The translations under genes and the position numbers were made by a program. Of a stretch of 44,636 nucleotides of DNA, positions 162 to 33,423 are shown in pieces; position 1 is the first letter of the stretch, and each line of letters starts with the position of its first letter. This DNA comes from Patescibacteria group bacterium (lineage in GTDB: Bacteria; Patescibacteriota; Microgenomatia; UBA1400; PJMF01): the NCBI GenBank assembly GCA_018816385.1, contig JAHIVK010000054.1, forward strand, positions 1-44,636. Reading direction: 5' to 3'. The notes under the pieces were generated by a model, which searched no databases, was not told the DNA's origin, and saw only the letters and a list, made by a program, of their open reading frames with translations.

Positions 162-1586
162 CTAAGGGACTTGCAGTAATGTTAAAGAATTGGTCAATCC
201 TGGCTTTTTCCAGAGCGTACCGTATGCCAGTAAAATCTGATCGCCAGATTTAGCAATCCCCAACTGGGCAAACTGATCCAGGAGCTTTTGAGAACTTTCC
301 AGTTTGTCCGAGTCCGGCAGATTGATAATCATGCCTGTCACATCATACAACAAACTCATTTTGCGATAAGTTTGAGGGTTGCTGGTCAGAGCAATAATGG
401 GGACCTTAGGTCTGAATCGAGCCATCATTTTGGCTGTTTGACCGGTTTCGGTTAAACAAACAATTTTGTCAATTTTGGTCTGACCATTGTTGATAATTGA
501 ATCTTCAACCAAATCAGCTGAGGCTTGAGTCATAAATGAGGTTGTACCGGAAAAGACTGGATGTACTTGTTGACATGGTGCATGTTGTTCGTTAAATTCG
601 GCGATAGTGGCTTGAGTAGCTACGGCCTCAACTGGATACTTGCCAATAGTAGTTTCTTCACTCAACATGACCGCATCAGTCCCGTCGTAGATAGCATTGG
701 TCACATCAGATACCTCGGCTCTGGTTGGTCGAGGATGATCGACCATGGACATGAGCATTTGGGTGGCAGTAATTACGGGTTTAGCGTGTTGGCGACACTG
801 ATAAATAATGGTTTTTTGCCAGTAAGTTAATTTCTGAAATGAAATTTCGACTGCCAAATCCCCCCTGGCCACCATGACCGCATCAGAAGCAATGATAATT
901 TCTTCCAGATGATCAATAGCTGATTGATTTTCGATTTTAGCCACGATGTCTTGAGTTAAATTTCTCTTTTTGAGTTCTGCCCGAAGGATTTCAATATCCT
1001 CCGCAGTTCTGACAAAAGATAAACCAATGTAATCCACCAGTTCGTTGGTGATGATGTCCAGATATTTTTTGTCTTGATCAATCAGGGCGGGTAAGTTAAT
1101 AGTTACTCCTGGTGTATTAAGAGTTTTGCGATGTTTGACTTCAAAATTGCTTAAAGCTCTAGCGTTGAGGCAGTTACCTTCTTTGGATTTGATGATAAAC
1201 TCTCCCAAGCCATCATCAATTAATATTGAACCATCAACACTTAGTGCATCAATCACGGCTTGAGGAATTTGAGGTTGTTTGGGTTGGGGCTCATTTTGTT
1301 CAGAACAAAATTTAATGATTTCATCTTTGACCACTGGGAAAGATTTACCTTCTGCTAAATTAATCCGAATTTCTGGACCTTGCAAATCAAGTAGAATGGC
1401 AATCGGTTGATTCATTTCCTTGGCTACTTGATGAACTCGCTTAATTCTTTCCAAGTGCCAAGTTGGTTCAGAATGTTTAGTATTAAATCTGGCTACGTTC
1501 ATACCGTTTTCGATCAGCAGTCTGATAATTTCAATCGATTCGGTGGCAGGGCCGATGGTGGCCACAATCTTAGTTGCTTTAGTCAT
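162..1586 (-). CDS. pyk: Pyruvate kinase
   Basis: TKIVATIGPA, GPEIR, VAKIEN, MVARGDLAVEI, KPVITATQMLMSM...PRPTRAEVSDVTNAIYDGTDAVMLSEET. Confidence 0.95.
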   Translation of the reverse strand: MTKATKIVATIGPATESIEIIRLLIENGMNVARFNTKHSEPTWHLERIKRVHQVAKEMNQPIAILLDLQGPEIRINLAEGKSFPVVKDEIIKFCSEQNEPQPKQPQIPQAVIDALSVDGSILIDDGLGEFIIKSKEGNCLNARALSNFEVKHRKTLNTPGVTINLPALIDQDKKYLDIITNELVDYIGLSFVRTAEDIEILRAELKKRNLTQDIVAKIENQSAIDHLEEIIIASDAVMVARGDLAVEISFQKLTYWQKTIIYQCRQHAKPVITATQMLMSMVDHPRPTRAEVSDVTNAIYDGTDAVMLSEETTIGKYPVEAVATQATIAEFNEQHAPCQQVHPVFSGTTSFMTQASADLVEDSIINNGQTKIDKIVCLTETGQTAKMMARFRPKVPIIALTSNPQTYRKMSLLYDVTGMIINLPDSDKLESSQKLLDQFAQLGIAKSGDQILLAYGTLWKKPGLTNSLTLLQVP

Positions 1587-1680
1587 GAGTCCTTTCCATG
1601 TCCCTCTTGAGTTGTGGTTTAGTTTGGGTTAGAGTGATTTGGTAATTAAGGTAATTGTAAACTAAAGAAGGAGAACTGTC

Positions 1681-2178
1681 ATGGGAGATAACACACCAAA
1701 ACTGCAAACTGGAGATGATATTGCCATAGCGGCGGTTAGTCAACAAACCAAAGAATTAACCGAAGCTGAAGAAGTGGCTCAATCTAATGAATTGGCAGAC
1801 ACTTTAACTTCTCTGCAAAGTCTGATTGAGCGAAATGCCAAAAGGATTAATCAAGTCAGACAAGATTTGAGGGAGAAAAGAGAAAGTTTAAAAAGTGTTT
1901 ATGATAACGACGGCCAGTTGAGTGGCGCTCAGGAAGAGTTAAAACAGTATGACCAGAAAGTTAGAGAGCGCCGAGTTCAAATCAGTAATGATCCTCAAGC
2001 TGTCACCCTTAGAAATGACATTGGTGAATTAAATGAGAGCAAAAAAGACTTGGAAATGGCTTTGAGTGACCACTTGGTTAACTATTACCAACTCACCAAC
2101 TCCACCAGCTTTGATACCAGCGATGGTGATCAATGGGAGTTTAAAATCACGGCCAAAGTCAAGACTCAGCGCAAGTAA
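1681..2178 (+). CDS. Hypothetical coiled-coil protein
   Basis: 165-aa ORF, charged heptad-like sequence; gaaggaga SD-like sequence upstream. Confidence 0.6.
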   Translation: MGDNTPKLQTGDDIAIAAVSQQTKELTEAEEVAQSNELADTLTSLQSLIERNAKRINQVRQDLREKRESLKSVYDNDGQLSGAQEELKQYDQKVRERRVQISNDPQAVTLRNDIGELNESKKDLEMALSDHLVNYYQLTNSTSFDTSDGDQWEFKITAKVKTQRK

Positions 2179-2186
2179 TCAAAAAC

Positions 2187-2447
2187 CTACTTGGAAATCC
2201 GATCGGCAATCTTTTGCAAGACTAGAGGTGAGATATTCTTCATTCTCTTGAGAGAACGAGATCTTCTTTTAAGTCTTTTGATCTGAATTTTCACAGTGGC
2301 TCTTTCTTTGGAAGGTTTACTGTAGTATTGACCATCTTTGGCATCTTGGACGATGTCGGTCATGGACACCGCCTTCTTGAATTTTTTAATGACGTCATGA
2401 GTTGAATCTTTGCCTTGGGCTCTAATGATAAGTGACATACGGCTCAC
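2187..2447 (-). CDS. rpsU: Small ribosomal subunit protein bS21
   Basis: DVIKKFKKAVS...YYSKPSKERATVKIQIKRLKRRSR resembles the S21 pattern. Confidence 0.7.
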   Translation of the reverse strand: MSRMSLIIRAQGKDSTHDVIKKFKKAVSMTDIVQDAKDGQYYSKPSKERATVKIQIKRLKRRSRSLKRMKNISPLVLQKIADRISK

Positions 2448-2500
2448 CTCCTTCCAAGTCTAGTTAGTCTACAGACTAATCTGAGCGACAATTATACCAT

Positions 2501-2983
2501 CTACTGGCTGGATTGACGGATCTGATGGGCTAGTTGGGCTAAATCTTTATCATCGGCACGAATTGAGTCGTTGGAGCTCAAGTATCCGGGATAAGTTTTA
2601 AAGAATTTTTTGTGGCTTTGGCTCTCGATATTTTTCCAAGCTTCCAGACCTCCCGTACCATGCATGGGAAAAAGTTTGCTGTGAAGATGATCAACGCCAA
2701 AGCCCTCAAAAAACATACCACACCTGGCTACATCTTCAAAGTAGTTGTCAAGAAGTCCTGCAACTTTTTTGGTGGCCACAATTAGTTCGCTCAACACTTG
2801 ATCAGATTGCTCAAAAGCATAGCTAGTATAGTGATCTTTGGGCATGACCACACTAAAACCTTGAGTGTTGGGAAAAATACTTAGGAATGCTAGGTGTTTT
2901 TCATCACTCCAAATGGTGTGTGATGGTACATCTCCTCTGACAATGGCACAAAACAAACAATCTTTTTTATTCAGCTTAAGCAT
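2501..2983 (-). CDS. HIT-family nucleotide hydrolase/transferase-like protein
   Basis: CLFCAIVRGDVPSHTIWSDEKHLAFLSIFPNTQGFSVVMPKDH ... VDHLHSKLFPMH; third His of the HxHxHxx motif is Lys. Confidence 0.75.
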   Translation of the reverse strand: MLKLNKKDCLFCAIVRGDVPSHTIWSDEKHLAFLSIFPNTQGFSVVMPKDHYTSYAFEQSDQVLSELIVATKKVAGLLDNYFEDVARCGMFFEGFGVDHLHSKLFPMHGTGGLEAWKNIESQSHKKFFKTYPGYLSSNDSIRADDKDLAQLAHQIRQSSQ

Positions 2984-3851
2984 AAATTTTTTTGATTAGG
3001 TCAATGATTTTATTTAAACCCAAAGGTGTGGCTTTTTGGCTTCTGTGTTTACGCGACCCGTTTAACAACATTTTGCCACTGGGATGATAATACCAAGTCC
3101 CCTCTGAATCAATTTCCAGTATTTTTGTATAGAGCGACTCGAGACTTAAAGCTTGATCTGGTCGAACTTTAATCCGAACATGCCCTTGTTCGGTATCTTT
3201 TCTGATGACTAGATCATAGCCCATTTTTTGAGCCAGCTTGAGAGTTTCATCATTTCTGGTGTCCAGCGCCAAACATTTGATTGATCCTAAATTAAAGGGC
3301 TGGCCTTTTTCCTTGATAATTTCTTCAGCCTTGATTTGTTGAGTTAAGACAGCATACACACTATCCAGACACTCAAAACCAAAATTGAGTTGTGAGTCAT
3401 CATTGTGGGGATCAAGATACTCCATGCCATGAATTAGCTCGTGAAGCATAAAAGTGTAACGGATGTGATTAGCCTCAGGCCAGGCAATTTCACCAAAATG
3501 ATCGACATCAGTCACATGTTGAACTAGGGCTTGGAGAGCTAAGTCAGTGACCAGTTCTGGGTGAAGTTTTGCTAGATGATCAAAAACTAGAGAACTTGCG
3601 GAAATGTGTTGTAGACCTCTGTCGGGTTGATGGTGATCGAACTCGCCCAGGCCGGTGTCAACATGCACCACTTGACTGGCATCAAAGCCCAAATGCAAGC
3701 GGTTAGTTTCTGATATATTGTCACCAGGATCAACAAAAGCCACTTGAGCCGAGGCATAATCTTGAGCATCAAAGCGCTTGAACAGCCAAACAGCAGTGAT
3801 GGCGTCTAAATCTGGGGCGTGGTGGGTGACAATTAGTTTTCTCTCAGGCAT
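2976..3851 (-). CDS. DHH/MYG1-like (UPF0160-like) putative metal-dependent phosphoesterase
   Basis: THHAPDLDAITAVWLFKRF, VDTGLGEFDHHQPDR. Confidence 0.6.
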   Translation of the reverse strand: MPERKLIVTHHAPDLDAITAVWLFKRFDAQDYASAQVAFVDPGDNISETNRLHLGFDASQVVHVDTGLGEFDHHQPDRGLQHISASSLVFDHLAKLHPELVTDLALQALVQHVTDVDHFGEIAWPEANHIRYTFMLHELIHGMEYLDPHNDDSQLNFGFECLDSVYAVLTQQIKAEEIIKEKGQPFNLGSIKCLALDTRNDETLKLAQKMGYDLVIRKDTEQGHVRIKVRPDQALSLESLYTKILEIDSEGTWYYHPSGKMLLNGSRKHRSQKATPLGLNKIIDLIKKIYA

Positions 3852-3880
3852 GAGTGGTCATAGTATACCATCAATAAAAA

Positions 3881-3919
3881 ACCAACCACACCATCCTTAT
3901 AAGGAGTGTTGTAGTTGGT
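3881..3919. terminator. Hairpin between MYG1-like gene and proS
   Basis: ACCAAC...GTTGGT outer arms around perfect TCCTTATAAGGA palindrome. Confidence 0.3.
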
Positions 3920-4047
3920 GTTCCCCACCGGGAAAGTAAGCTTAGTATACAATAAATTACACTCAGATATACTCGGAAAATGGTATGCCTCATCAGTCAA
4001 TAGTCATCAGACTTGAGGTAGGGAATAATAACTATAAGCCTAAATAT

Positions 4048-5739
4048 TTATTGTACTTTCTGCGGTAAAAGTTTGGTTAAAACTTCTTTTTTGGATAAGA
4101 CTTGAGATTTTTGGCTGGTTCTGGCTTTCCACTCAACTGCATCTTGGGTTTTTTGAGATACCACCAGTCTGACAGGAGCACCAATCAAATCAGCTACGGC
4201 AAATTTTTTACCAGCTGGTTCGTCTCGATCATCCCACAAAACTTCTGTACCTTGTTTGATGAGTTGATCATAAAGTTGCTCCGCTGACTCTTCTCCACCA
4301 GGCAGAGAAATGAGTTGAACGGCGAATGGAGCCACTGATTTGGGCCAAATAATGCCATGTTCGTCATGGTATTTTTCCACAATGGTGGCCAGAGTCCTTC
4401 CAATGCCAATGCCATAACAACCCATGTAATAGGGTTTGAGTTGGCCATCTTCGGCTTGGTAAGTCGCCCCCTTCATCTTTGATGAGTAGTGAGTGCCTAG
4501 TTGGAAAATGTTACCTACCTCGATACCTTTAACCTCTGTCAACTTTTTGCCTTGATGATTAGTATGACCCGCTTGGGCCAAAGCAATATCGGCCTCAACC
4601 TCGGTTTTAAAATCTCGGCCGTAGTTAACATTAAAAGTGTCAGTTGTTTCAGTTTTTTGACCACCATAGAAGTTGATAACTGTTTTGAGTGATAAATCTG
4701 CCACATACAGTGCTTGATGTCCCCAGGAGTGGACAAAGCCAGGTTTGGTGTCTAGAGTTTTAAGATCTTCTGGAGTGGCTTCATCAAGTAATTCAATAGC
4801 ATCAATAGCTTTTTCTAGTTTAGTTTTATTGACTGTCAAATCTCCTCTGATGGTGGCAATCACAATTTGGCCAGTATCTTGGCGTTTATAAACCACGTTC
4901 TTTAAGAATCGCCACTTGGGTTGTTTAAAGTGAGTCGCTAATTTTGCCATATTGGTCACATCTGTGGGTAAATCTCGAACTTCCATAGGTAGAGGTTTTT
5001 CATCTGGGTTAATTGGCTCGAGCTTAACTTCTGCCACGTCTTCATGGGCGCAGTAACTGTCATCTGCGGTTTCTAAATAGCGGCTCTCCCCCACATTGGA
5101 ATCGACTATAAACTCATGACAGTACTCTCCGCCAATATAGCCATTGTCTGCCAAAACCTGTTTAGTTTTTAAACCTAGTTTTTCAAAGATTTTAAAATAG
5201 GCATCGGCCATTTGCCCATAAGTTTTCTTGAAGGTTTGAGCATCTGTATCAAAACTGTAGGCATCCTTCATTAAAAATTCCCGAGCTCTAAGCAAACCAC
5301 CCCTAGCCCTGAGTTCATCTCTAAATTTTTGGGAGAATTGGTAAATATTAAAAGGCAGATCTTTATAAGACAATTGAAATTTGCGGACCACATCCACAAA
5401 CATTTCTTCGGCGGTGCCACCTAAGGCAAATTTAGCACCGCGCCGATCGGCCAGAGTCATTAAACCAAAGTTGCCAGCATTTTGACGATTAGTTTCTTGC
5501 CACAACTCAATTGGGTGAAGCACAGGCGAGATCATTTCTTGGGCGCCGACCGAATCCATTTCTCGGCGAATAATATCCACTATTTTATTTTGGACTCTCA
5601 TGCCCAGAGGTAACATGAAGTAACGACCGGCCACACTTTCTCTAATAAAACCGCCTTTAACCAACAGTTGATGACTGATAAGTGTGGCATCTTTGCTGGT
5701 ATCTTTGGTGGGTTTGCCAAAAAGCTGTGAATACTTCAT
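4048..5739 (-). CDS. proS: Prolyl-tRNA synthetase
   Basis: FALGGTAEEMFVDVVR, FRDELRARGGLLRAREFLMKDAYSF, YGIGIGRTLATIVEKYHDEHGIIWPKSVAPF. Confidence 0.95.
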   Translation of the reverse strand: MKYSQLFGKPTKDTSKDATLISHQLLVKGGFIRESVAGRYFMLPLGMRVQNKIVDIIRREMDSVGAQEMISPVLHPIELWQETNRQNAGNFGLMTLADRRGAKFALGGTAEEMFVDVVRKFQLSYKDLPFNIYQFSQKFRDELRARGGLLRAREFLMKDAYSFDTDAQTFKKTYGQMADAYFKIFEKLGLKTKQVLADNGYIGGEYCHEFIVDSNVGESRYLETADDSYCAHEDVAEVKLEPINPDEKPLPMEVRDLPTDVTNMAKLATHFKQPKWRFLKNVVYKRQDTGQIVIATIRGDLTVNKTKLEKAIDAIELLDEATPEDLKTLDTKPGFVHSWGHQALYVADLSLKTVINFYGGQKTETTDTFNVNYGRDFKTEVEADIALAQAGHTNHQGKKLTEVKGIEVGNIFQLGTHYSSKMKGATYQAEDGQLKPYYMGCYGIGIGRTLATIVEKYHDEHGIIWPKSVAPFAVQLISLPGGEESAEQLYDQLIKQGTEVLWDDRDEPAGKKFAVADLIGAPVRLVVSQKTQDAVEWKARTSQKSQVLSKKEVLTKLLPQKVQ

Positions 5740-5784: not shown

Positions 5785-6681
5785 CTACTTCCAAAACTCC
5801 ACTTCATCCGCAATCAACTTGGCGATGGAGATGGTTTCTACATTGTGGGGAAGAGTCTGATGATAAATAGTGTTGGTAATCACCACTTTTTCGATGGGTG
5901 CTGATTTGATTTTATCCAGCGCTCCTCCGGCAAATAGGCCGTGAGTGGCTAAAAAGTAGATTTGCTTGGCTCCTTCCGCGTGCAACAGTTTGGCAGTCTC
6001 CACCGCCGTACTGCCCCCCACAATAATATCGTCATATAATATCACCTGCTTGCCTTTGACATCACCCTGAAGACTAACCTCGGTCACTTTACCGGTTTGC
6101 AAATCTCGATGTTTATTAATATTTAGCAGTTCTACGTCAAGTTGTTTGGCAAACTGGCGGGAACGTTTGAGACCGCCAAAGTCCGGGCTCACCACTACTG
6201 TTTGTTTATGATTCAGATGATCTTTGACGTACTCCAGCATCAACTGTTCGGCCGAAATATGAGTGGTGGGCACCGAGAAAAAGGCCGGAATACTGGTATT
6301 GTGCAGATCAATTAAGACCACCCGCCGGACAAATGAGTTGGAAACTAAGTCGGCCACCACTTTGGCCGAGATGGGTTCGCCGGGCGAAAAAACTTTGTCT
6401 TGCAGGGAGTAACCCATCCAAGGGATAACGGCTTCAACCGACTTGGCCCCCATCCGTTCCAGGGCATCAGTCAGCAGGAGAAATTCAATAATTTGTTGAT
6501 CGGCCGGGCTCGAAAAAGACTGCAAAATCACCACGTCTTGGCCACGGACGTCATCCTTCACTTTGACTCGGCGCTCGCCATTGGCAAAAATGTTACTGGC
6601 AATTTTCACTAAAGAAACACCCAAGGCAGTGGCCACTTCAGTGGCCAGTTGGGGGTTGGATGAGCCGGCTATTAGTCGCAT
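5785..6681 (-). CDS. prs: Ribose-phosphate pyrophosphokinase
   Basis: FANGERRVKVKDDVRGQDVVILQSFS, VVSPDFGGLKRSRQFA, DDIIVGGST PRPP loop. Confidence 0.92.
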   Translation of the reverse strand: MRLIAGSSNPQLATEVATALGVSLVKIASNIFANGERRVKVKDDVRGQDVVILQSFSSPADQQIIEFLLLTDALERMGAKSVEAVIPWMGYSLQDKVFSPGEPISAKVVADLVSNSFVRRVVLIDLHNTSIPAFFSVPTTHISAEQLMLEYVKDHLNHKQTVVVSPDFGGLKRSRQFAKQLDVELLNINKHRDLQTGKVTEVSLQGDVKGKQVILYDDIIVGGSTAVETAKLLHAEGAKQIYFLATHGLFAGGALDKIKSAPIEKVVITNTIYHQTLPHNVETISIAKLIADEVEFWK

Positions 6682-6705
6682 AAAGCTCCAAGTCGATTTA
6701 CTTTA

Positions 6706-6763
6706 CGAGTTTCGCGCCTCCAGATCGGCTAAACCAAGTTTGGTTTGATTGCCGTAAAACTCG
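6706..6763. other. Nested inverted repeat upstream of prs
   Basis: CGAGTTT...AAACTCG enclosing AAACCAA-gt-TTGGTTT. Confidence 0.35.
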
Positions 6764-6774
6764 CGTTACTCATT

Positions 6775-6813
6775 GTAGTTTAACTGGTAACCAGGGTTTC
6801 GTCCAGAATGGAT
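6775..6813 (-). repeat. Shared 3'-flank motif copy 1
   Basis: GTAGTTTAACT-N9-GGTTTCGTCCAGAATGGAT, same spacing as 7994-8032. Confidence 0.7.
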
Positions 6814-6865
6814 CATGACTAACAACGATTGATTTAGCTGGCACTTAACTTATGTGCCAAGAATT

Positions 6866-7783
6866 TTATGCAGTTCTTTGAGCAATTATCAAATCCAGTT
6901 CTTCTTCTGTCATCTGGAGCTGATCAGCAAGCTTATGAGCCTGGGCTAGATTTATTGAATTGTCACGATACAGCTCATCTATTTGATTTCGTATCTCCTC
7001 AATTTTGGTTCGAGTATTGCCAAATTGTGTGAGATCAGTCATCTCTAGGTTCATAATTATAGATAAGTATTCTGAATAGGTAGCGTCTTGTAATACTTGC
7101 CTTTTTTCTTTGATAACTTGTTGTAGTTCAGTTAATTGGGCTTCACTTATTTTATCATTAATCTTTTTGAGATCCATGACAGAACTAGCTTGGTTTATAG
7201 CAGTTTGAAAAGACTCAAATTGTTCTTCTTGAAATTGTTCTATTGAAGCTATTATTTTTTCTCTCAATCTACCAGCGTGAGAGTGACCAAGTCCACCTTC
7301 CGATTCTGTGCGATCAACATTCTCTCTTAAACTCAGGAACTTATCCATGGAATCAGCGTCGTTAATCTCTTGGATAAATTCGTCTTCTTGCTTATCCCAA
7401 CCTCCTATTAAGTCTCTTTGATCGCGTATCATCCGGACAAAATCATCATAAACTCGCCCATAAACTTGTTCTGGCGGACTGGTTCTTTGTTCAAACTCCG
7501 AAATCTTTTTGTCTGCCTCAGACTCAAAGAACGGTTGAGATGCACGATCTAATTCTTTTTGAGTCTCGGCTTGATGAACAGCTCTGGCATAAGTTAGAAC
7601 ATTATCTAGGCGTACGCCTTTTGGAGGATAAATTGTATCTAGAACGCGATCATCGAACTTTTGGCCCTTTTTAAATGTTGACTTAAACAGAGCAACCAAA
7701 TCATCAGTTGTTTTTCCTTCCGCTAAACTTGGGCCTATCAAATCTCTGGATATTTTTGGGGTGTCACGTTGTTCTTGATTCAT
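6866..7783 (-). CDS. Hypothetical helical protein (305 aa)
   Basis: Long ORF, strongly helical/charged, no recognised domain. Confidence 0.7.
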   Translation of the reverse strand: MNQEQRDTPKISRDLIGPSLAEGKTTDDLVALFKSTFKKGQKFDDRVLDTIYPPKGVRLDNVLTYARAVHQAETQKELDRASQPFFESEADKKISEFEQRTSPPEQVYGRVYDDFVRMIRDQRDLIGGWDKQEDEFIQEINDADSMDKFLSLRENVDRTESEGGLGHSHAGRLREKIIASIEQFQEEQFESFQTAINQASSVMDLKKINDKISEAQLTELQQVIKEKRQVLQDATYSEYLSIIMNLEMTDLTQFGNTRTKIEEIRNQIDELYRDNSINLAQAHKLADQLQMTEEELDLIIAQRTA

Positions 7784-7857
7784 AAAATCATTGATCAGTT
7801 AAGTTTGTACTGATCACCTTTTTGGTTTTACAAACTACTGCGGTAATTATATCATAA

Positions 7858-7987
7858 TGCATCTTTTGACCATTTTCCCATTTTTATCTTCCTCAAGTAG
7901 CTCTGGCTACTATCGTCATCTAAAAATGGTGAAAATGTGTCAAAATCTATCATTAATTTCTTTATTTCTTATTTCACTACAAGTCTA
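7858..7987. repeat. Divergent copy (b) of MITE-like element, one terminus lost
   Basis: Shares gcatctttt, ctcaagtagctctggctactatcg, aaaatctatc and tttcttatttcactacaagtcta with 41967-42132. Confidence 0.7.
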
Positions 7988-7993
7988 TTGATA

Positions 7994-8032
7994 GTAGTTT
8001 AACTCGAAGCTGAGGTTTCGTCCAGAATGGAT
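7994..8032 (-). repeat. Shared 3'-flank motif copy 2
   Basis: GTAGTTTAACT-N9-GGTTTCGTCCAGAATGGAT. Confidence 0.7.
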
Positions 8033-8044
8033 TGAGACAATTTG

Positions 8045-11000
8045 TTATGTGGCTTTTTCTATGATGAAAAAATTATCGAAAGATGTCCAAGAAGGTTCAG
8101 CCACGTCAATACTACCCCCGAGTGAATCATAGTATTTTTTTAGTTTGAGATTACTTTCGTTGATAAAATATTCTCCCGAAATTGGTTTTATATGATACCC
8201 TCTTGATTCAAGTACCTTGAGAACATCAGCTCTAGCAGTGAATCGATGCGTATTAAATATGATTGATAATTCCGGAGTATTTAATATCCTGTCGACCATA
8301 TGCAAAATCATTTCGCTGGAAAAATGCTCGCTAAAGTTTTGATACTGTGGATTCACATATTCGCGATCAATCAAGATTGCTAATCTTGGTTGATTGTCCC
8401 CTGAGAGTCGAACTTGAGAAAGTTCAACGAAACTTCTTGCCAATCTATTTCTTTCGCCATGTCTGATTTCAAAAATATCAATCATTTCATTAGAGCCATC
8501 CAATAAACGAGAGTAAGCTGCATGATTGTGGCCAGTTGGTTCTGTTAATCTTTGACAACTCAAAGTGATATCGGGTGCTCTTGCCAGATTTCTAAATGCG
8601 ACTGTCGTCTCGGTTTCAAAGACAGTTTGTCCCGAGACACTTTCTTCACTCATAGTACTTTTTAATTTATCTAAATCAGATAAAACTTCTTCTTCCAATG
8701 CTCTTGTGTTTGCATCTGTTGACCTTCTTTCGGGATCTATTATTCCCAACCTTTTCAAAGCACTAAAAAATTCTCCAACAAGCTTGTCAATTTCATTGAG
8801 ATAATCTCGTTGGGCTTTGAACTTATCTTCACTGATTGTTCCCAATTTATACAGTGCTTTTAATATAACCGATATTCCCTGATATGTTCCCAGACTTTTT
8901 CCTAATTTTCCCTTTTCTTCCCTTGGTGTTTCAGGATTTTTAAGTTTAGTTTGCGCATCTTTAATAAATGTCATGACTGCTCGATATATATTCGGTAAAT
9001 CTTGGCGTATCACTCCTTCTAAAGTCATCAAGTACCGCTTATATATCTTAAGCTGTTCAGCTTCTGAGTCACTAGCATTTTCCTTTTCAATTCTCGCTTC
9101 AAGCTCTTTGATTTTTGCGGAAAATAGTTCTCTCAGGTGAATAGACAAATCCGACTGGACAATATCTTTGATTCTCTTGAGACGATGTGTGGTAGATTCT
9201 TCAGACGTAATGACATTGCCATTGACACGCAATCTTCTTCTTGGAGTTAAATCAAGCCAAGTTCGCATGACCCTACTTCTGACTTCTGGAGGGATGCCTT
9301 CAAATATCCTATTAAATTGATGTTCAGAAAGTTCAGCTCGTTTTTCTAAATAAGCTTGAGGATTACGCTCCAAATTCAGTTCAAGTGATTGTCTGATCGC
9401 ATCCATTAATATGCCAAATTGCGGACTTTGGCTTGAAAAACTCTGCCCAAATATTCCTACAGCCCGACAATTAATTTCAAGTATGTCATCGAACTCCCTA
9501 TCTGCTTTTGCCAGTTCTATTAATTCATTTTGTTTTGTAGCTAACTTCTCTTGTTCCAAATCAGAATATATGACAGGAATGGCCAGATCGACCATCATGC
9601 TGGTTAAAATTTCATTAGCTTCTTGAAAATTGGCTGACTGAAGCAATTGATTTTGCCAATCCGTAATTTGCGCGACTGCCGCGATTCTGGCATTGATGAG
9701 ATATTTTAGGGCTAATCGATCCAATTCCGTGGCTTTTTGTGAAATAGAAAATATTTTTGTAAGTACTTCATCTGGAATTTCACCATTCAAGATACTCTTA
9801 TTAAATTGGCCAATTCTATTGTGAGCATCTCTGATATTGGAAAAATAGTCATCTGAAAAAAGTTTTTTGGCATGGTTATATAGTTGAACATCGGCGCTCA
9901 ATGCCACAAACAATTTGAAATTATTTTCTGGCATTAAATCTTCTTCTTTGAGTGAATTTCTTGCTTCTTTGAGTTTCTCTTCTATTCCTGGAAATTGTGC
10001 TAATTGGGCGTAATATTGAAATAGATTGGGATTAAAAGTGAAGCCAAGATTATCTCGTAGAATATCTAATACTTGAAAAATATGATCGCGATCAGGAGAT
10101 TCCGTAAGACTTTTCAGAAGTTTAATGTGGTGAAAATTAAATTTGTAGTTATAGCTTGCCAGTCGAGTAATCACGTCTTTATTATCTTTAATGAAGATGG
10201 CAGCTGGAATTGATCCGATATTGAACTTTGCCGAAGGTTGGTCAATAAATTGATTATAAACTTGGACTGCGTCTATTAATTGTTCTTTTGTATAACCACT
10301 CTCAATAAAGGTTGTCAGTTCATGACTATCACTAATTGTTAAACTGTACTTTATCACTTCTCTTAAAATTACAACTGCTGTGGGCAACTGATCAATAACT
10401 GGTTCAAGCTGTAATAAAAAAGGCAAGTCTGTTATTTTAAAGACATACGGACCAATGTCTCTTTCGTCTTGAAAATAAGAGTCATCACTGGCTTGAACTT
10501 GACTTACTGTAGAAAGAAGTTTTGGCAAACTTTCCATGTGTGGTATCAGATGCGAAAGGTTTTTTATGTCATCGGCTCGAAATTTATATCCATGAATAAC
10601 TAAAAGATCAAGGTAACCTTCATGACTTGCTGATAATTGAAGCAATGGCATTAAGTCACTATTTTGAAAAGCATAGTGATATGTTTGTTGTAGTTTGCCA
10701 ATGAAATCATGAAAATCAACCGGAGTGTTGACAATAATTTTAATGTCCTTTAACTGAAGATTATGATAACCAAAGTTTTCACTAAGTATTTTAAATACTT
10801 CTTGCGTTTGTTTGGAAAATAACTTTGTTTTTAAGGCATCATCTTGAGATAACGCATCAAGTAATGTTTGTTGGTCTTTGATTTCGAACTTAGCAAAAAT
10901 TGGATAAAAATTAAATTGATCTATTAGACTGACCATTAATTCTCGACGGGGATGATCTATATTTAAGATCCGTTTGATATCAGGCAGACATATTTTATTT

Positions 11001-13036
11001 GATTGGACTTTCTTGATAAAATCTGAATTTTCTGGATTAAATAACTGCTGTTGTAGCTCTTTATCATCAAATATTTCCAGTAAATTAATTATTTCTTTGG
11101 CATCGACTTGCCACCCGAATTCTTGCATCAATCTGATTGTTAAAGCTTTCAATTCTGGAGACTCTAATTTACTTAAAGCAGTTGGGTCATTGGCAATAGT
11201 TTCAAAGGTTTCTACGTTTGGTAACATGAAAGAATCTGATAAATTGCAACCAATGCTCTCCATAGCGTTGATTATTGAAACCATATTGGGGTGATTCCCT
11301 AATTGAATGTAGAATTCTGGATTAAATGCATTAAAATTACCTCCTAATGCCCTGATGACTACTGTTGTGGAATCCCGTATAAAATTTTGACGGATTGTCG
11401 GATTCACAAATATCTCTGCTATATGACTTTTTCCCTCATAATAAAGATCAAAATTACTGGGTTTATATCCAGCTTTAGTTTTAAGAATCTCCAGAAATTT
11501 GAGGAAATCCTCATCAGTAAATATTTCCATTACATCGTGATTAGAGACCATTGAAGATAGAGTCTTCAAGTCAATGCTAAATTTCTCGATGTCTTGATAT
11601 ATTCTTTGTAAAGACTTTAAAATATAAATAGCACTTTTGCCCTTTGCTAGATCTTCTCCAAATAATTCGTTGAGATTGGATAATTCATCCACAGTTATGG
11701 GAGAACCTCTTATTTCTGCTAATAATTCAACAAACTCTCGGCTTTGAGTATCGCTCAAAAATTTTTGGATATGAGGTTGACTTAATACTTCCTGCAAATA
11801 TTGCACAGCTTCTTGTCGTACTTCTTGAGGTTTTTGCTCGGCTTCGTAACTGTCAAATAATGTTCCTAATGTGGGTTTGCCACCTAAGTAATCGTATTTG
11901 CTAGCATATCCAAGAGATACGCCAGAACGATAGAGGTCAACTATAAGTTTTAATATACCCGCTTGGTCAAGAGCTATTATATTTTCAAATATAGGTATGT
12001 TGCGTTTATAATTTGATGGTAAAATAACAAACTTACTTAAATAAGCAACAAATTCTAAGTAATTTGGGTTATTTAGAATTATTTGGAGTTGTCCAATTTC
12101 TGCAACACTTACTTGTATATTTAAGGCAGTAGACAGAGTATTTATTTTTTGGACCAAGTCTAGTGAAAATACTGTATCAAGATCGGGGTTTTGGGCAAGC
12201 TGAGTGAGAAATTCTATTTGTCCAACCTCAACAACTTTGCCATACGTAGCATTTTTCTGCGAGAACCAATCATTACCCCACCAAGATATATTTTGTGCAA
12301 GTTCGAGGACCCCTTTTGCATGGGGTGCAGAAAAAAATTCTTCCAGTTTTGCCATATAGTCAGGCGACTTCAACATGTAATCGCTAAACCAAAAACCAAT
12401 TTTGACCAATCCTTCAGCCAGTTCAACAGGGTGATTATTGGTAGAAATGAGGCCTTTGATGAGCTCGATATGCTTTTGTTCAAGTTTCAAAGGTACACTT
12501 CGATCAAGAGATAATTTGGCATGCTTACCAGTTTGATTTTCATCAATGTGGTAAATTTCTCCCTGCCAACCTTTTTTTTTCCACTCTTTCAGTATTCGCC
12601 TCTTTTGTTCATCTTTGAGACCCTTTGGTACTTCAACCTGTTTGTGCTGATATTCGTAAACTGTAGATTCAAAGTAATCTGCCAGTTCCAGAAAACGGTT
12701 TAAATCTTTTATGCCTTCAAGTCGAGCTTGGACAAGTAGTATCTGTCTATGGATTTTATCTGAAATTGATCGTGGTCTTTCTTGTGGCTTCTCAATTTTA
12801 GAAACTGGTTTTTCTATACTAGTAGCGGTTTTTTCTATAACCTCCCAGGTTTTTTGACTTTGTTGAGTTTGTTCAACCTGATGACGAGCCACCTCTGCTT
12901 GATAAAAGCTCTCTATATCGATAAACCTGCGTTGTTGAAGAACAGGTTCCTGAGGAAGAACCTCTGGAGTGACCACTGGTCTTGGTTCCTGTTTAATCAA
13001 TAATTCTTGTTTTTGGGGAACTTCAACATCTATCAT
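8045..13036 (-). CDS. Giant alpha-helical, solenoid-like protein of unknown function (1663 aa)
   Basis: Uninterrupted 4992-nt ORF; recurring Leu-rich helical units; separate mixed alpha/beta-looking C-terminal region (LSCQRLTEPTGHNHAAYSRLLDGSNEMIDIFEI...). Confidence 0.85.
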   Translation of the reverse strand: MIDVEVPQKQELLIKQEPRPVVTPEVLPQEPVLQQRRFIDIESFYQAEVARHQVEQTQQSQKTWEVIEKTATSIEKPVSKIEKPQERPRSISDKIHRQILLVQARLEGIKDLNRFLELADYFESTVYEYQHKQVEVPKGLKDEQKRRILKEWKKKGWQGEIYHIDENQTGKHAKLSLDRSVPLKLEQKHIELIKGLISTNNHPVELAEGLVKIGFWFSDYMLKSPDYMAKLEEFFSAPHAKGVLELAQNISWWGNDWFSQKNATYGKVVEVGQIEFLTQLAQNPDLDTVFSLDLVQKINTLSTALNIQVSVAEIGQLQIILNNPNYLEFVAYLSKFVILPSNYKRNIPIFENIIALDQAGILKLIVDLYRSGVSLGYASKYDYLGGKPTLGTLFDSYEAEQKPQEVRQEAVQYLQEVLSQPHIQKFLSDTQSREFVELLAEIRGSPITVDELSNLNELFGEDLAKGKSAIYILKSLQRIYQDIEKFSIDLKTLSSMVSNHDVMEIFTDEDFLKFLEILKTKAGYKPSNFDLYYEGKSHIAEIFVNPTIRQNFIRDSTTVVIRALGGNFNAFNPEFYIQLGNHPNMVSIINAMESIGCNLSDSFMLPNVETFETIANDPTALSKLESPELKALTIRLMQEFGWQVDAKEIINLLEIFDDKELQQQLFNPENSDFIKKVQSNKICLPDIKRILNIDHPRRELMVSLIDQFNFYPIFAKFEIKDQQTLLDALSQDDALKTKLFSKQTQEVFKILSENFGYHNLQLKDIKIIVNTPVDFHDFIGKLQQTYHYAFQNSDLMPLLQLSASHEGYLDLLVIHGYKFRADDIKNLSHLIPHMESLPKLLSTVSQVQASDDSYFQDERDIGPYVFKITDLPFLLQLEPVIDQLPTAVVILREVIKYSLTISDSHELTTFIESGYTKEQLIDAVQVYNQFIDQPSAKFNIGSIPAAIFIKDNKDVITRLASYNYKFNFHHIKLLKSLTESPDRDHIFQVLDILRDNLGFTFNPNLFQYYAQLAQFPGIEEKLKEARNSLKEEDLMPENNFKLFVALSADVQLYNHAKKLFSDDYFSNIRDAHNRIGQFNKSILNGEIPDEVLTKIFSISQKATELDRLALKYLINARIAAVAQITDWQNQLLQSANFQEANEILTSMMVDLAIPVIYSDLEQEKLATKQNELIELAKADREFDDILEINCRAVGIFGQSFSSQSPQFGILMDAIRQSLELNLERNPQAYLEKRAELSEHQFNRIFEGIPPEVRSRVMRTWLDLTPRRRLRVNGNVITSEESTTHRLKRIKDIVQSDLSIHLRELFSAKIKELEARIEKENASDSEAEQLKIYKRYLMTLEGVIRQDLPNIYRAVMTFIKDAQTKLKNPETPREEKGKLGKSLGTYQGISVILKALYKLGTISEDKFKAQRDYLNEIDKLVGEFFSALKRLGIIDPERRSTDANTRALEEEVLSDLDKLKSTMSEESVSGQTVFETETTVAFRNLARAPDITLSCQRLTEPTGHNHAAYSRLLDGSNEMIDIFEIRHGERNRLARSFVELSQVRLSGDNQPRLAILIDREYVNPQYQNFSEHFSSEMILHMVDRILNTPELSIIFNTHRFTARADVLKVLESRGYHIKPISGEYFINESNLKLKKYYDSLGGSIDVAEPSWTSFDNFFIIEKAT

Positions 13037-13121
13037 ATTTATTTATCCATAACTAGCATACAAAAATTTGGAACATTAATAAAGATTCAGTGTCTAGCAG
13101 ACGTAGGATGCTGAGTACATT

Positions 13122-16055
13122 TTAACTGCGGTGAGCAGAGGCGTTAATCAAACCGCACTTCTTGTACTTCAATCCCGACCCGCAGGGACAGGGATCATTG
13201 CGGCCAATTTTGGCCTGCTTTTCGCCCGGTTCGGGCCGGCGGGCGGTAGCTCCTTTGGCTCCAGCCAAGGCTGAAGCAAAATCACCTTTTGAGGCAGAGG
13301 TTTTTTGAGGTGCCGGTTGAGGTAAACTGGCATCAGCTACCTCTTTGGTCAATTCTTCGTGAATATCATCTTTATGAGCCACCATTTGGGCTGGTGCTGG
13401 TTGGCGCATGGGAGCTTGATTCAGTTGGACTCTAAACATCCGACTGGCAATAGTTGATTCGGTCGTGCCCAGTAGGGTCTCAAACATGGCAAAAGCTTCT
13501 TTTTTATATTCAGACAAGACAGTTTGTTTATCGCCCCTCAGCCAAATGCCTTGTCTGAGTGAATCCATAGCATCCAGGTGGTCCATCCACTGCTGATCAA
13601 TAGTAGAGATGGTGACGACTCTTTCCAGCATCCGCATCTGCTCTTCGCCTATGGTTTGTTCTCTAGCCCCGTAGGTTTGTTGGGCTAAAGTCACCAATTT
13701 GTCGGTGATGGAATCGATATCATCAACTTTTTTTAAGTCTTCAGCTAAGCGTTGTTGTGAAGTCTGATCAAAAGGAATCAGTTTGGTGAACTCTTTGGCC
13801 AATGTGGCATACTCATTGTCTGTGTACTCATGAGGAGCGTGCAAACTGGTAATGGATTTAACTTCATCCTCGATATAGCCCAAAATTTGATCTTTAAGAC
13901 TGGTCTGAGTTTCTGATGTGGTTTGGCTGGCTTGTTCCAGCAATCGTCTGCGCCGGGCATAAATAATATCTCGTTGTTTATTCATCACATCGTCAAACTC
14001 CACTAACCGTTTTCTTTGATCAAAGAAAAATCCTTCAACTTTAACTTGAGCTGACTCAATGGATTTACCCACCATGCCGTGTTCAATGGGTTGGGTCTCA
14101 TCAATTTTAAGGAAATCCATAAGTTTGGAGATTTGTTCTCCGCCAAAAATGCGCATAATTTCATCTTCCAGTGAGATGAAAAATTGGGAAGCGCCCGGAT
14201 CACCCTGCCGGCCAGATCGGCCTCTGAGCTGATTATCGATTCGGCGAGATTCGTGACGCTCTGTACCCAAAATAAACAGTCCGCCAGTTTCCACCACTGC
14301 ATCATGATCGGTCTGCCACTTGGTCAAAGCTGTGGCGTATTCAGCTAATTTGTAGTTAGCAGGATTAACTGAGGGTGGCAGTTTGACACCAGCTGGAATA
14401 TTAACTTTTTTAAGTGATTTGGTGAGAGTTTTTTTGCGATAATCTTTAAGTTCCGGTTTGGCTCCTCCCAGCACAATGTCCACTCCTCGACCGGCAATGT
14501 TGGTGGCCACGGTGATAGCGCCTTTTTTACCCGCATCAGCAATAATAAAAGCCTCTTTTTCGTGATTCTTGGCGTTGAGAGTTTGGTGAGTGATTTTTTT
14601 GCGATCCAAGAAATCGGCCACAATTTGGTTGTGATTAATCGATCTGGTACCAATTAAAATTGGCTGACCTGTGGCGTGAAGCTCTTCGATCTTTCTGACA
14701 ATGGCAGAGTATTTGGCGGTAGTAGTCTTGTAGACAATGTCCAGCTTGTCCTGGCGAATAACCAGTTGATTAGTGGGGATGACAATCACATCAGTTTCAT
14801 AGATTTTTCTAAACTCTTCTGCCTCGGTTTGGGCGGTGCCCGTCATACCAGACAGTTTTAAGTAAAGACGGAAGTAATTTTGAATAGAAATAGTGGCTAA
14901 GGTTCTTGATTCCTGCTGAATTGGCACATCCTCTTTGGCTTCAATCGCCTGATGCAAACCCTCACTGTAGCGACGGCCATACATCAGGCGCCCCGTGTGT
15001 TCATCCACAATGATAACTTGCTTATCGCGCACAATGTAATCTTTATCTCTGGTGAAAATGGTTCGAGCTTTGAGGGCGCTCTCTACATGATGGATAACGT
15101 CAAAACTTTCTTCGTAAAGATTTTTGACACCTAGTTTTTGTTCCAGACGTTTAACTCCCAGGTCGGTTAAAGTCACCGAACGGGCTTTTTCATCAACTTT
15201 GTAATCTGCTTCTTTGGCCAAAGAAGTCACCATTTTGGCATACTGATAGTATTTGTCTGTCGGGTCGCTATCTGGGGCGGAAATAATTAAAGGAGTCCTG
15301 GCTTCGTCAATTAGAATTGAGTCAGCCTCATCCACAATGGCAAAGTGATGGGCATTTTCCTGGCGTTGGACCATCTGATCCAAGCTTTGGACCATGTTGT
15401 CCCTTAGGTAATCAAAGCCAAACTCATTGTTGGTGCCGTAGGTAATATCGGCTGAATAGGCTTGTTGGCGGGTGGTAGGCTCAAAGTGTTCCAGGCGCTC
15501 ATCTCCTCGATCCTGGGAATCTATGTCTGGATTATAAAACTTAGCTTGGTCATGAGTGATAACAGCTACTTTTAAGTCTAGGAAATGATAAATAGGTCCC
15601 ATCCAACCTGTGCCGGTTTCTGCTAGATAATCATTGACCGTTACCAGATGAGCGCCCTTACCCAGTAGGGAATTGAGGTATAGAGGCATAGTCACAGTTA
15701 AAGTTTTACCTTCTCCAGTTTTTTGTTCAGTAATGGTGCCATTATGTAAAGCAATAGCCGCCAGAATTTGGACATCAAAATGGCGTAAACCAATCACCCT
15801 TCGGGAAACTTCGCGGACAGTGGCAAACGCCTCTGGCAAAATCTGATTCAGAATATCTGTTTCGGCTTGATGCTGTTCTCTGCCTTGCTTAATCAGTTCG
15901 CGGAAAAGTTTGGTTTGACCTGACAATTTAGTATCACTCAAACCCTTGAATTTTGGTTCTAAAGTATTGACTTGATCGACAATTTTCTGGTAGCGATCCA
16001 GGGCTTTTTTGTTCTCGTCAAACAGGTTTTTGAATAGGCCTAACATGGAGGGCAA
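13122..16055 (-). CDS. secA: Preprotein translocase subunit SecA
   Basis: TGEGKTLTVTMPLYLN, DEADSILIDEARTPLIIS, GRGVDIVLGG, C-terminal SEC-C zinc motif GRNDPCPCGSGLKYKKC. Confidence 0.97.
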   Translation of the reverse strand: MPSMLGLFKNLFDENKKALDRYQKIVDQVNTLEPKFKGLSDTKLSGQTKLFRELIKQGREQHQAETDILNQILPEAFATVREVSRRVIGLRHFDVQILAAIALHNGTITEQKTGEGKTLTVTMPLYLNSLLGKGAHLVTVNDYLAETGTGWMGPIYHFLDLKVAVITHDQAKFYNPDIDSQDRGDERLEHFEPTTRQQAYSADITYGTNNEFGFDYLRDNMVQSLDQMVQRQENAHHFAIVDEADSILIDEARTPLIISAPDSDPTDKYYQYAKMVTSLAKEADYKVDEKARSVTLTDLGVKRLEQKLGVKNLYEESFDVIHHVESALKARTIFTRDKDYIVRDKQVIIVDEHTGRLMYGRRYSEGLHQAIEAKEDVPIQQESRTLATISIQNYFRLYLKLSGMTGTAQTEAEEFRKIYETDVIVIPTNQLVIRQDKLDIVYKTTTAKYSAIVRKIEELHATGQPILIGTRSINHNQIVADFLDRKKITHQTLNAKNHEKEAFIIADAGKKGAITVATNIAGRGVDIVLGGAKPELKDYRKKTLTKSLKKVNIPAGVKLPPSVNPANYKLAEYATALTKWQTDHDAVVETGGLFILGTERHESRRIDNQLRGRSGRQGDPGASQFFISLEDEIMRIFGGEQISKLMDFLKIDETQPIEHGMVGKSIESAQVKVEGFFFDQRKRLVEFDDVMNKQRDIIYARRRRLLEQASQTTSETQTSLKDQILGYIEDEVKSITSLHAPHEYTDNEYATLAKEFTKLIPFDQTSQQRLAEDLKKVDDIDSITDKLVTLAQQTYGAREQTIGEEQMRMLERVVTISTIDQQWMDHLDAMDSLRQGIWLRGDKQTVLSEYKKEAFAMFETLLGTTESTIASRMFRVQLNQAPMRQPAPAQMVAHKDDIHEELTKEVADASLPQPAPQKTSASKGDFASALAGAKGATARRPEPGEKQAKIGRNDPCPCGSGLKYKKCGLINASAHRS

Positions 16056-16099
16056 TTATGGCAGAAAAAGGTCATTTTGGGGAGGGGAAAAAGGGGTTT

Positions 16100-16214
16100 G
16101 TCATCCTCGCGCCTTTTTGTCATCCTCGCGCCTTTTTGTCATCCTCGCGCCAGCGGGGATCCAGGGGCGCAGTTGTCAATCCTGGATTCCCCCCGCCTGG
16201 GCGAGGAGAATGAC
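16100..16214. repeat. REP/BIME-like cluster: 19-bp tandem (gtcatcctcgcgccttttt) plus inverted REP pair
   Basis: gtcatcctcgcgccagcggggatccagg...cctggattccccccgcctgggcgaggagaatgac. Confidence 0.85.
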
Positions 16215-32236: not shown

Positions 32237-32510
32237 GTCATTCTCCTCGCGTAGCGGGGGGAATCCAGTGGTTGGTCTCATACTCCTGGATCCCCGCTGG
32301 CGTGAGGATGACAGACCCTCTGGATCCCCGCTGGCGCGAGGATGACAGACCCTCTGGATCCCCGCTGGCGCGAGGATGACAGACCCTCTGGATCCCCGCT
32401 GGCGCGAGGATGACAGACCATCTGGATCCCCGCTAGACCCCGCCCAAGCGGGGGGCGCGAGGATGACAGACCCTCTGGACCCCGCCCAGGCTGGGCGTGA
32501 GGATGACCAG
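32237..32510. repeat. REP-type array with 34-bp tandem units
   Basis: aggatgacagaccctctggatccccgctggcgcg at exact 34-bp spacing (atg ending 32310, 32344, 32378, 32412), then degenerate units; inverted REP at 32237. Confidence 0.92.
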
Positions 32511-33423
32511 TGCCCGCGGGTTTATTTTGATGAACAGTCTGATTAAGTTCATCCAAAGCTTGTTTAGCCTCGGCTTGATTTGGGGCTCGCCCGTGCCAAT
32601 CGGGATTATTTTCCATAAACGACACGTCCTTGCCAGCCGTCGTGTGGCAGATAATGGCAGTTGGTAGGTGGCACGTGCGAGCCCCATTCAGAGCCCAACT
32701 AATTTGATCAAAATTATGGCCATCAATTTCTACCACTTGCCAATTGCAACTGGTAATTTTTTCGGCCAGTGGTTCCAAGGGGGCAATTTCCTGGGTGGTA
32801 CCATCAATTTGGATGTCATTGCGATCAATCAGAACAGTCAGGTGAGTTAAATGATGAGCGCCAGCGTAACGATAGGCTTCCCAGATTTGGCCTTCCTGAT
32901 GTTCCGCATCACTGGTTTGGACAAAAATGTGGTTGCTTTTGTGGTCTAGTTTGAAAGCTGTGGTCAGACCGCAACCCAAAGACAAACCCTGGCCCAGCAG
33001 ACCCGATGTATTCTCTACCCCCGGCAGTGAACCTTGGTGAGGGTGGCCTTGGAGACGTGAGCCAAACTGTCTTAAAGACCCAAGTTCCTCAAGGGGAAAG
33101 TAACCGGCTTGGGCTAACGTCGCATACCAAACCGGACAGACATGACCATTGGAGAGCAGAAAATAATCGCGCTCTGGCCAGTCCGGTTGATGAGGTCTCT
33201 GCTTGAGGACAGCAAAATAAAGACCAGTCATCACATCAGCCAATCCCAGCGACCCGCCAGGGTGGCCACTGCCGGCCCCAGCGATCATCTCGATCACGTG
33301 GCGCCTAATCTTTTGGGCGATAAAAGCTAACTCCGAGGGAGTTTTTGTTAAACTTGTCGCGAAATGAGGGAAATGATTAACCGGTTTCTTATTTCTGGGC
33401 ACATCTCTTGTCTGATCGGGCAT
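32278..33423 (-). CDS. Transketolase, N-terminal subunit with repeat-encoded C-terminal tail
   Basis: GAGSGHPGGSLGLADVMTGLYF, LSNGHVCPVWYATLA; tail TGHPHAQPGRGPEGLSSS... lies in the REP array. Confidence 0.9.
   Translation of the reverse strand: MPDQTRDVPRNKKPVNHFPHFATSLTKTPSELAFIAQKIRRHVIEMIAGAGSGHPGGSLGLADVMTGLYFAVLKQRPHQPDWPERDYFLLSNGHVCPVWYATLAQAGYFPLEELGSLRQFGSRLQGHPHQGSLPGVENTSGLLGQGLSLGCGLTTAFKLDHKSNHIFVQTSDAEHQEGQIWEAYRYAGAHHLTHLTVLIDRNDIQIDGTTQEIAPLEPLAEKITSCNWQVVEIDGHNFDQISWALNGARTCHLPTAIICHTTAGKDVSFMENNPDWHGRAPNQAEAKQALDELNQTVHQNKPAGTGHPHAQPGRGPEGLSSSRPPLGRGLAGIQMVCHPRASGDPEGLSSSRQRGSRGSVILAPAGIQRVCHPHASGDPGV

Follow-up and report, generated by a model that had tools for sequence, protein, structure and literature searches.

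The window analysed here, a contig of 44,636 nucleotides from a Patescibacteria group bacterium (JAHIVK010000054.1), carries an intact frame of 1663 codons, here called BIG, and raises the question of whether such a giant gene stands alone or belongs to a family, and of how its product is built. BIG is the largest open reading frame of the window, as a sequence-only reading had stated, the next being secA (977 aa); at the local base composition, 1663 open codons would be expected by chance with a probability of about 10^-56. That reading had also described a Gln/Pro-rich N-terminus and a protein lacking signal peptide and transmembrane segments, and both descriptions held. Residues 1-90 contain 14% Q, 10% P and 14% E and are probably disordered, while a hydropathy scan revealed no transmembrane or signal-like segment, the maximal Kyte-Doolittle value over 19 residues being 1.44, as expected for a soluble protein. 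Searches of Pfam, NCBIfam, PHROGs, PADLOC and PDB sequences gave no match at or near cut-off, and none that covered the whole protein with a characterised family. The sub-threshold Pfam and PHROG rows (Caudo_TAP, IL12, L544_NTransf) were weak or short, and a described family was not found in the published literature. A species-level gene of this kind is ordinary in itself, since 45,788 clusters that are species-specific and of unknown function are on record for Patescibacteria (PMC9132574).

A search of 41 further genomes from its own taxonomic family did not find BIG, giving a presence of 1 in 42. The full-length protein recovered nothing convincing from 138 relatives and then from 88 genomes of the order, nor did its C-terminal part from 181 and 379 genomes; of the weak C-terminal matches, those inspected (cysS-, hisS-, aroA-type and further known genes) were discarded as chance. 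Nothing convincing came either from scanning GTDB r220 contigs twice with sequence patterns or from viral contigs, phages and plasmids, one GTDB scan and one viral-contig scan having used patterns loosened with two invented alignment rows that are not real proteins. When 373 genomes of the class were searched with the full-length protein, four genomes matched, all from one other family (f17). These four related loci ruled out the earlier view of BIG as an orphan. Three of them encode intact proteins of 1415, 1544 and 1630 aa (L122, L123 and L125), and the fourth genome (G692), which belongs to the same genus as the genome carrying L125, has a remnant of the tail. A profile of the f17 relatives detected no further member in the 45 f17 genomes, so that the family is patchy (4/45).

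The similarity between BIG and its intact relatives is restricted to the N-terminal part. BLAST of BIG against L122, L123 and L125 gave E-values of 3e-45, 1e-28 and 4e-13, with all alignments lying within residues 23-546. When residues 39-529 were compared by hhalign with a profile of the three relatives, the match reached 99.7% (E 5e-26) and stopped sharply at 529; pieces of the remainder (530-1663) scored at about the shuffle or chance level against the same profile. The four proteins therefore have in common a module of about 490 residues, which is probably all-helical and in which BIG is 22-29% identical to the others, and no C-terminal domain common to all of them was found. The relatives resemble BIG in this module, in size and in having neither transmembrane segment nor Pfam family, but their C-terminal two thirds are unrelated to those of BIG and consist of a middle module of their own followed by an HD-like or nucleotidyltransferase-like head. 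BIG is thus modular, since the N-terminal module is common to the three relatives, nothing is shared after residue 529, and the middle parts and heads differ.

Table 1. Positions of BIG, its parts, the neighbouring elements and the related loci. Coordinates refer to the window for BIG, p305 and the 47-nt element, and to the named locus for the relatives.
Feature	Position	Strand	Basis or remark
BIG, 1663-aa modular protein	8045..13036	minus	ORF, ATG start, stop present
BIG residues 1-90, Q/P/E-rich N-terminal tail	12767..13036	minus	composition
BIG residues 39-529, N-terminal module common to L122, L123, L125	11450..12922	minus	BLAST and hhalign
BIG residues 530-1285, lineage-specific helical arm	9182..11449	minus	no similarity to relatives; low-confidence all-helical model
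BIG residues ~632-1020, degenerate helical repeat of ~30-50 residues inside the arm		minus	jackknife 3/8
BIG residues 1286-1465, charged arm-head linker	8642..9181	minus	composition, sequence; no similarity to relatives
BIG residues 1466-1663, alpha/beta head	8048..8641	minus	AF2, Foldseek, hhalign
BIG residues 1615-1661, best conserved tail, GEYFINESNLKLKKYYDSLGG...PSWTSFDNFFIIEK	8054..8194	minus	66% identity to L124:1770-1910
p305, 305-aa orphan downstream of BIG, same insertion	6866..7783	minus	ORF
47-nt element copy 1, 3' of BIG	7986..8032	minus	81% identical to copy 2
47-nt element copy 2, 3' of p305	6767..6813	minus	19 nt exact with copy 1
L122 (G612)	719-4966	plus	intact, 1415 aa
L123 (G672)	6112-10746	minus	intact, 1544 aa
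L125 (G537)	5914-10806	minus	intact, 1630 aa
G692 remnant, BIG tail only	L124 1770-1910		upstream frames broken by stops

Among themselves, L122, L123 and L125 share a middle module of 570 columns (50% and 43% identity to L122) that is undetectable in BIG. The heads of L122 and L123 contain an H...HD pattern, as in HD hydrolases, and that of L125 contains GSTARGSNVPGDYDFD, a sequence consistent with the pol-beta nucleotidyltransferase motif; the Pfam rows at these heads were sub-threshold (HD, E 0.14, for L122; NTP_transf_2, E 0.035, for L125). Identity between L122 and L123 is 22-38% over most of the N-terminal half and 58-67% in the C-terminal half, while between L123 and L125 it is about 40% along most of the chain, as far as the head, and 18% at the start of the heads. 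Such mosaic identities are the pattern expected from module exchange. With only three intact relatives known, the proposed swapping of heads would correspond to few events. One module, at 3761-4285 of L122 and in the matching parts of L123 and L125, is highly conserved (GDLLKGI...ILxNGSLAKEYLGASADSDMTPFDTD...RDRGQF...GIRTGIASTEID...FTIAQN) and has no Pfam match; from its residues it looks enzyme-like, possibly of the nucleotidyltransferase or ADP-ribosyltransferase type.

Over 1000 residues of recurring helical units had been described after the Gln/Pro-rich N-terminus of BIG. The consensus quoted for these units, [L/I]..L....G......[D/E]...[L/I]..L, has no literal match in BIG. A relaxed form was mildly enriched (3 matches vs 0.5 expected, a number reached by 7 of 500 shuffles), and in a jackknife with a profile of eight hand-picked units three of them (747, 808 and 955) scored above all shuffles, the others being indistinguishable. 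On these two grounds we retain a helical repeat of degenerate form between about 630 and 1020, but not the range originally claimed. Pfam revealed no recognised repeat profile (HEAT/TPR/PPR-like) in BIG. The single-sequence AF2 model of residues 625-1020 was all-helical, with a pLDDT of 37.5, a pTM of 0.19 and no confident tertiary arrangement. A solenoid is likely for the predicted arm, although a regular one is weakly supported. The linker, judging from its residues, is probably helical as well.

The C-terminal ~200 residues had been singled out as distinct, in agreement with the AF2 models, where they are alpha/beta as opposed to the all-helical 625-1020 segment. The single-sequence model of the head is of low confidence (pLDDT 50.6, pTM 0.52), and its C-terminal part has the order beta-beta-alpha-beta-alpha-beta-alpha-beta. 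Foldseek, a check proposed for this domain, returned GNAT acetyltransferases as the ten best PDB rows (E 0.01-0.04), with TM values of about 0.25 on this low-confidence model. With the same model, all Z values from VIA stayed below 5 and several folds were mixed, and BFVD was mixed too; AP-endonuclease, exonuclease III and methyltransferase rows from Foldseek and VIA were rejected, with Z below 5 and ties with many other folds. The order of strands and helices predicted for the last part of the head and a helix-4-like motif, N.SN..L..YYDSLG, fit the GNAT fold (PF00583 and kin; RimI, Naa50). The head differs from GNATs in lacking both sequence-profile support and the CoA pyrophosphate loop motif. 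No Pfam GNAT row appeared up to E 10. Comparison by hhalign with 25 GNATs of BIG's taxonomic family gave 0.5%, the shuffle level, the aligned piece being the motif N.SN..L..YY..LG, whereas held-out GNATs gave 88-100%. A [Q/R]xxGx[G/A] (RxxGxG-type) loop is absent, the residues after putative beta4 being DREYVNPQYQNFSEHF. GNAT membership by sequence was therefore rejected. A GNAT-like transferase is nevertheless the best single guess for the modelled head, at roughly one chance in three, and an enzymatic role of the head is plausible. No PF00583 acetyltransferase was found in the genome that carries BIG, whereas, of 36 genomes of its family that were searched, 33 contain at least one.

The extreme C-terminus of BIG also has a relative elsewhere. 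The G692 remnant, where nothing but the tail is kept, is 66% identical to the last 47 residues (1615-1661), including N.SN.KL.KYYDSLGG. As the N-terminal module is 22-29% identical in the other relatives, the tail is under stronger constraint.

BIG and p305 lie between prs and secA and form a lineage-specific insertion (window 6681-13122). Both are AT-rich and have atypical codons (GC of BIG 0.354 vs 0.40-0.49). Among the 16 relatives whose prs and secA share a contig, the two genes lie within 76 bp of each other in eight and within 513 bp in one; the remaining seven contain inserts of 1.3-7.2 kb with unrelated ordinary genes. The junction is thus a variable insertion site of this family (loci L039-L071): prs and secA adjoin in many genera, and in others the genes at this site were named from their sequences as glycosyltransferases, flippases, RsuA-type, pyrimidine and ThiF-like genes. 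The p305 product is probably helical. Our searches gave no relatives of it, tblastn found no match in L122-L125, and comparison with BIG excluded a repeat or paralogue; a PADLOC Cas12b row was weak or short. A 47-nt element follows each of the two genes, and these are its only copies in the whole genome when a 19-nt core is searched with up to 3 mismatches, a distribution that links BIG and p305 by origin or regulation. The exact pattern was absent from other family members. The flanks of the element are conserved, its variable middle has the potential for a small hairpin (CTC/GAG vs CTGG/CCAG), and no stable fold was found. An integron attC site was rejected, as no matching core-site pair was read, and so was a tRNA or Rfam RNA, ARAGORN and Rfam giving no match there. 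In its arrangement, p305 is a cassette-like unit between 47-nt direct repeats. Neighbours of BIG and of its relatives are mostly housekeeping genes. Directly 3' of the relatives we found a RarA-type ATPase gene (L123) or opposite-strand genes (L122 and L125).

Taken as a whole, we give about even chances to BIG being one variant of a giant cytoplasmic protein built from modules, with a fixed N-terminal platform and a remainder exchanged between lineages. The platform of about 490 residues would be kept and everything beyond it exchanged, for a long helical arm and an alpha/beta head of about 200 residues in BIG, and for the other middle module with an HD-hydrolase-like or pol-beta-nucleotidyltransferase-like head in the three relatives. 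Platform and arm may attach to a shared partner or keep an assembly together, the arm may space or recognise, and the head might carry out either chemistry (in BIG perhaps acyl or CoA transfer, in view of the weak GNAT-like topology) or recognition. From gene order, BIG would have arrived with p305 at the variable prs-secA site, and the pair may act together. Of the scaffold-and-head arrangement suggested by the sequence-only reading, the separate C-terminal head stood, given the N-terminal module with differing heads and the tail found alone in G692, while the regular solenoid did not gain the same support; a cytoplasmic helical scaffold with a separate C-terminal head is the best supported architecture. 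Several points argue against the modular model as read from these sequences: the head model of BIG is of low confidence, its hhalign score against GNATs is at shuffle level and a CoA loop is absent, the putative HD and nucleotidyltransferase assignments lie below curated cut-offs, the proposed exchange would involve few events among three intact relatives, and a p305 counterpart is absent beside the relatives.

The absence of that counterpart also bears on the proposal that BIG is an effector resembling polymorphic toxins, in which a constant N-terminal part would serve delivery, the head would be toxic, p305 would confer immunity and the target would be the cell on which the bacterium depends. 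In favour, polymorphic toxin systems likewise have an N-terminal region that stays constant while the C-terminal domains behind it are not homologous, the detached tail in G692 recalls their orphan C-terminal modules, and a small orphan gene lies directly downstream of BIG. The BIG family differs from them in having no consistent immunity gene, no co-directional small gene being found directly 3' of L122, L123 or L125, and neither hydropathy nor Pfam searches of BIG and its relatives revealed a secretion signal, transmembrane segment or known delivery domain; we regard this proposal as improbable. A cytoplasmic conflict or defence sensor is a further proposal: platform and arm would recognise something made by a phage or mobile element, and the effector would be the head (nucleotidyltransferase, HD or alpha/beta transferase). 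HD and nucleotidyltransferase-type heads are common in nucleotide-based conflict systems, and the patchy presence (4/45 in f17, 1/42 in BIG's own family), the variable insertion site and the large sensor-like helical body all fit such a role. It is unlikely all the same, as neither PADLOC nor PHROGs has a family for BIG, the neighbours are mostly of the housekeeping kind and no recognised defence genes lie nearby. BIG could also be a dispensable lineage-specific gene, encoding a structural or scaffold protein that evolves fast and was acquired once, with the head as a fold relic devoid of catalysis. Its low GC content and atypical codons, the abundance of species-level unknown genes in Patescibacteria and the loss of all but the tail in G692 are consistent with this, but the frame of 1663 codons is intact and the tail is far better conserved in one relative than the N-terminal module is on average in the others, which makes mere dispensability hard to credit.

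If the modular reading of BIG is correct, a supposed orphan becomes a member of a family with recognisable head types, and it is this relation that adds to its interest. The common platform offers a profile for further searches and the kinds of head point to chemistries, in host-dependent bacteria with small genomes and many species-specific genes of unknown function. Should the heads serve a sensor or delivery system as effectors, this would have implications for how these bacteria deal with phages or host cells. That BIG represents a new class of giant cytoplasmic Patescibacteria-like proteins, with a helical platform and exchangeable HD, nucleotidyltransferase or GNAT-like heads, working as a sensor-effector conflict system or a delivered effector, is possible but doubtful.

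Elsewhere in the window, REP-like GTCATCC(T/C)CGCGCC repeats seem to form a tandem array upstream of secA (16097-16153) and to have become part of the final stretch of an open reading frame for the N-terminal half of a transketolase (32278-33423).
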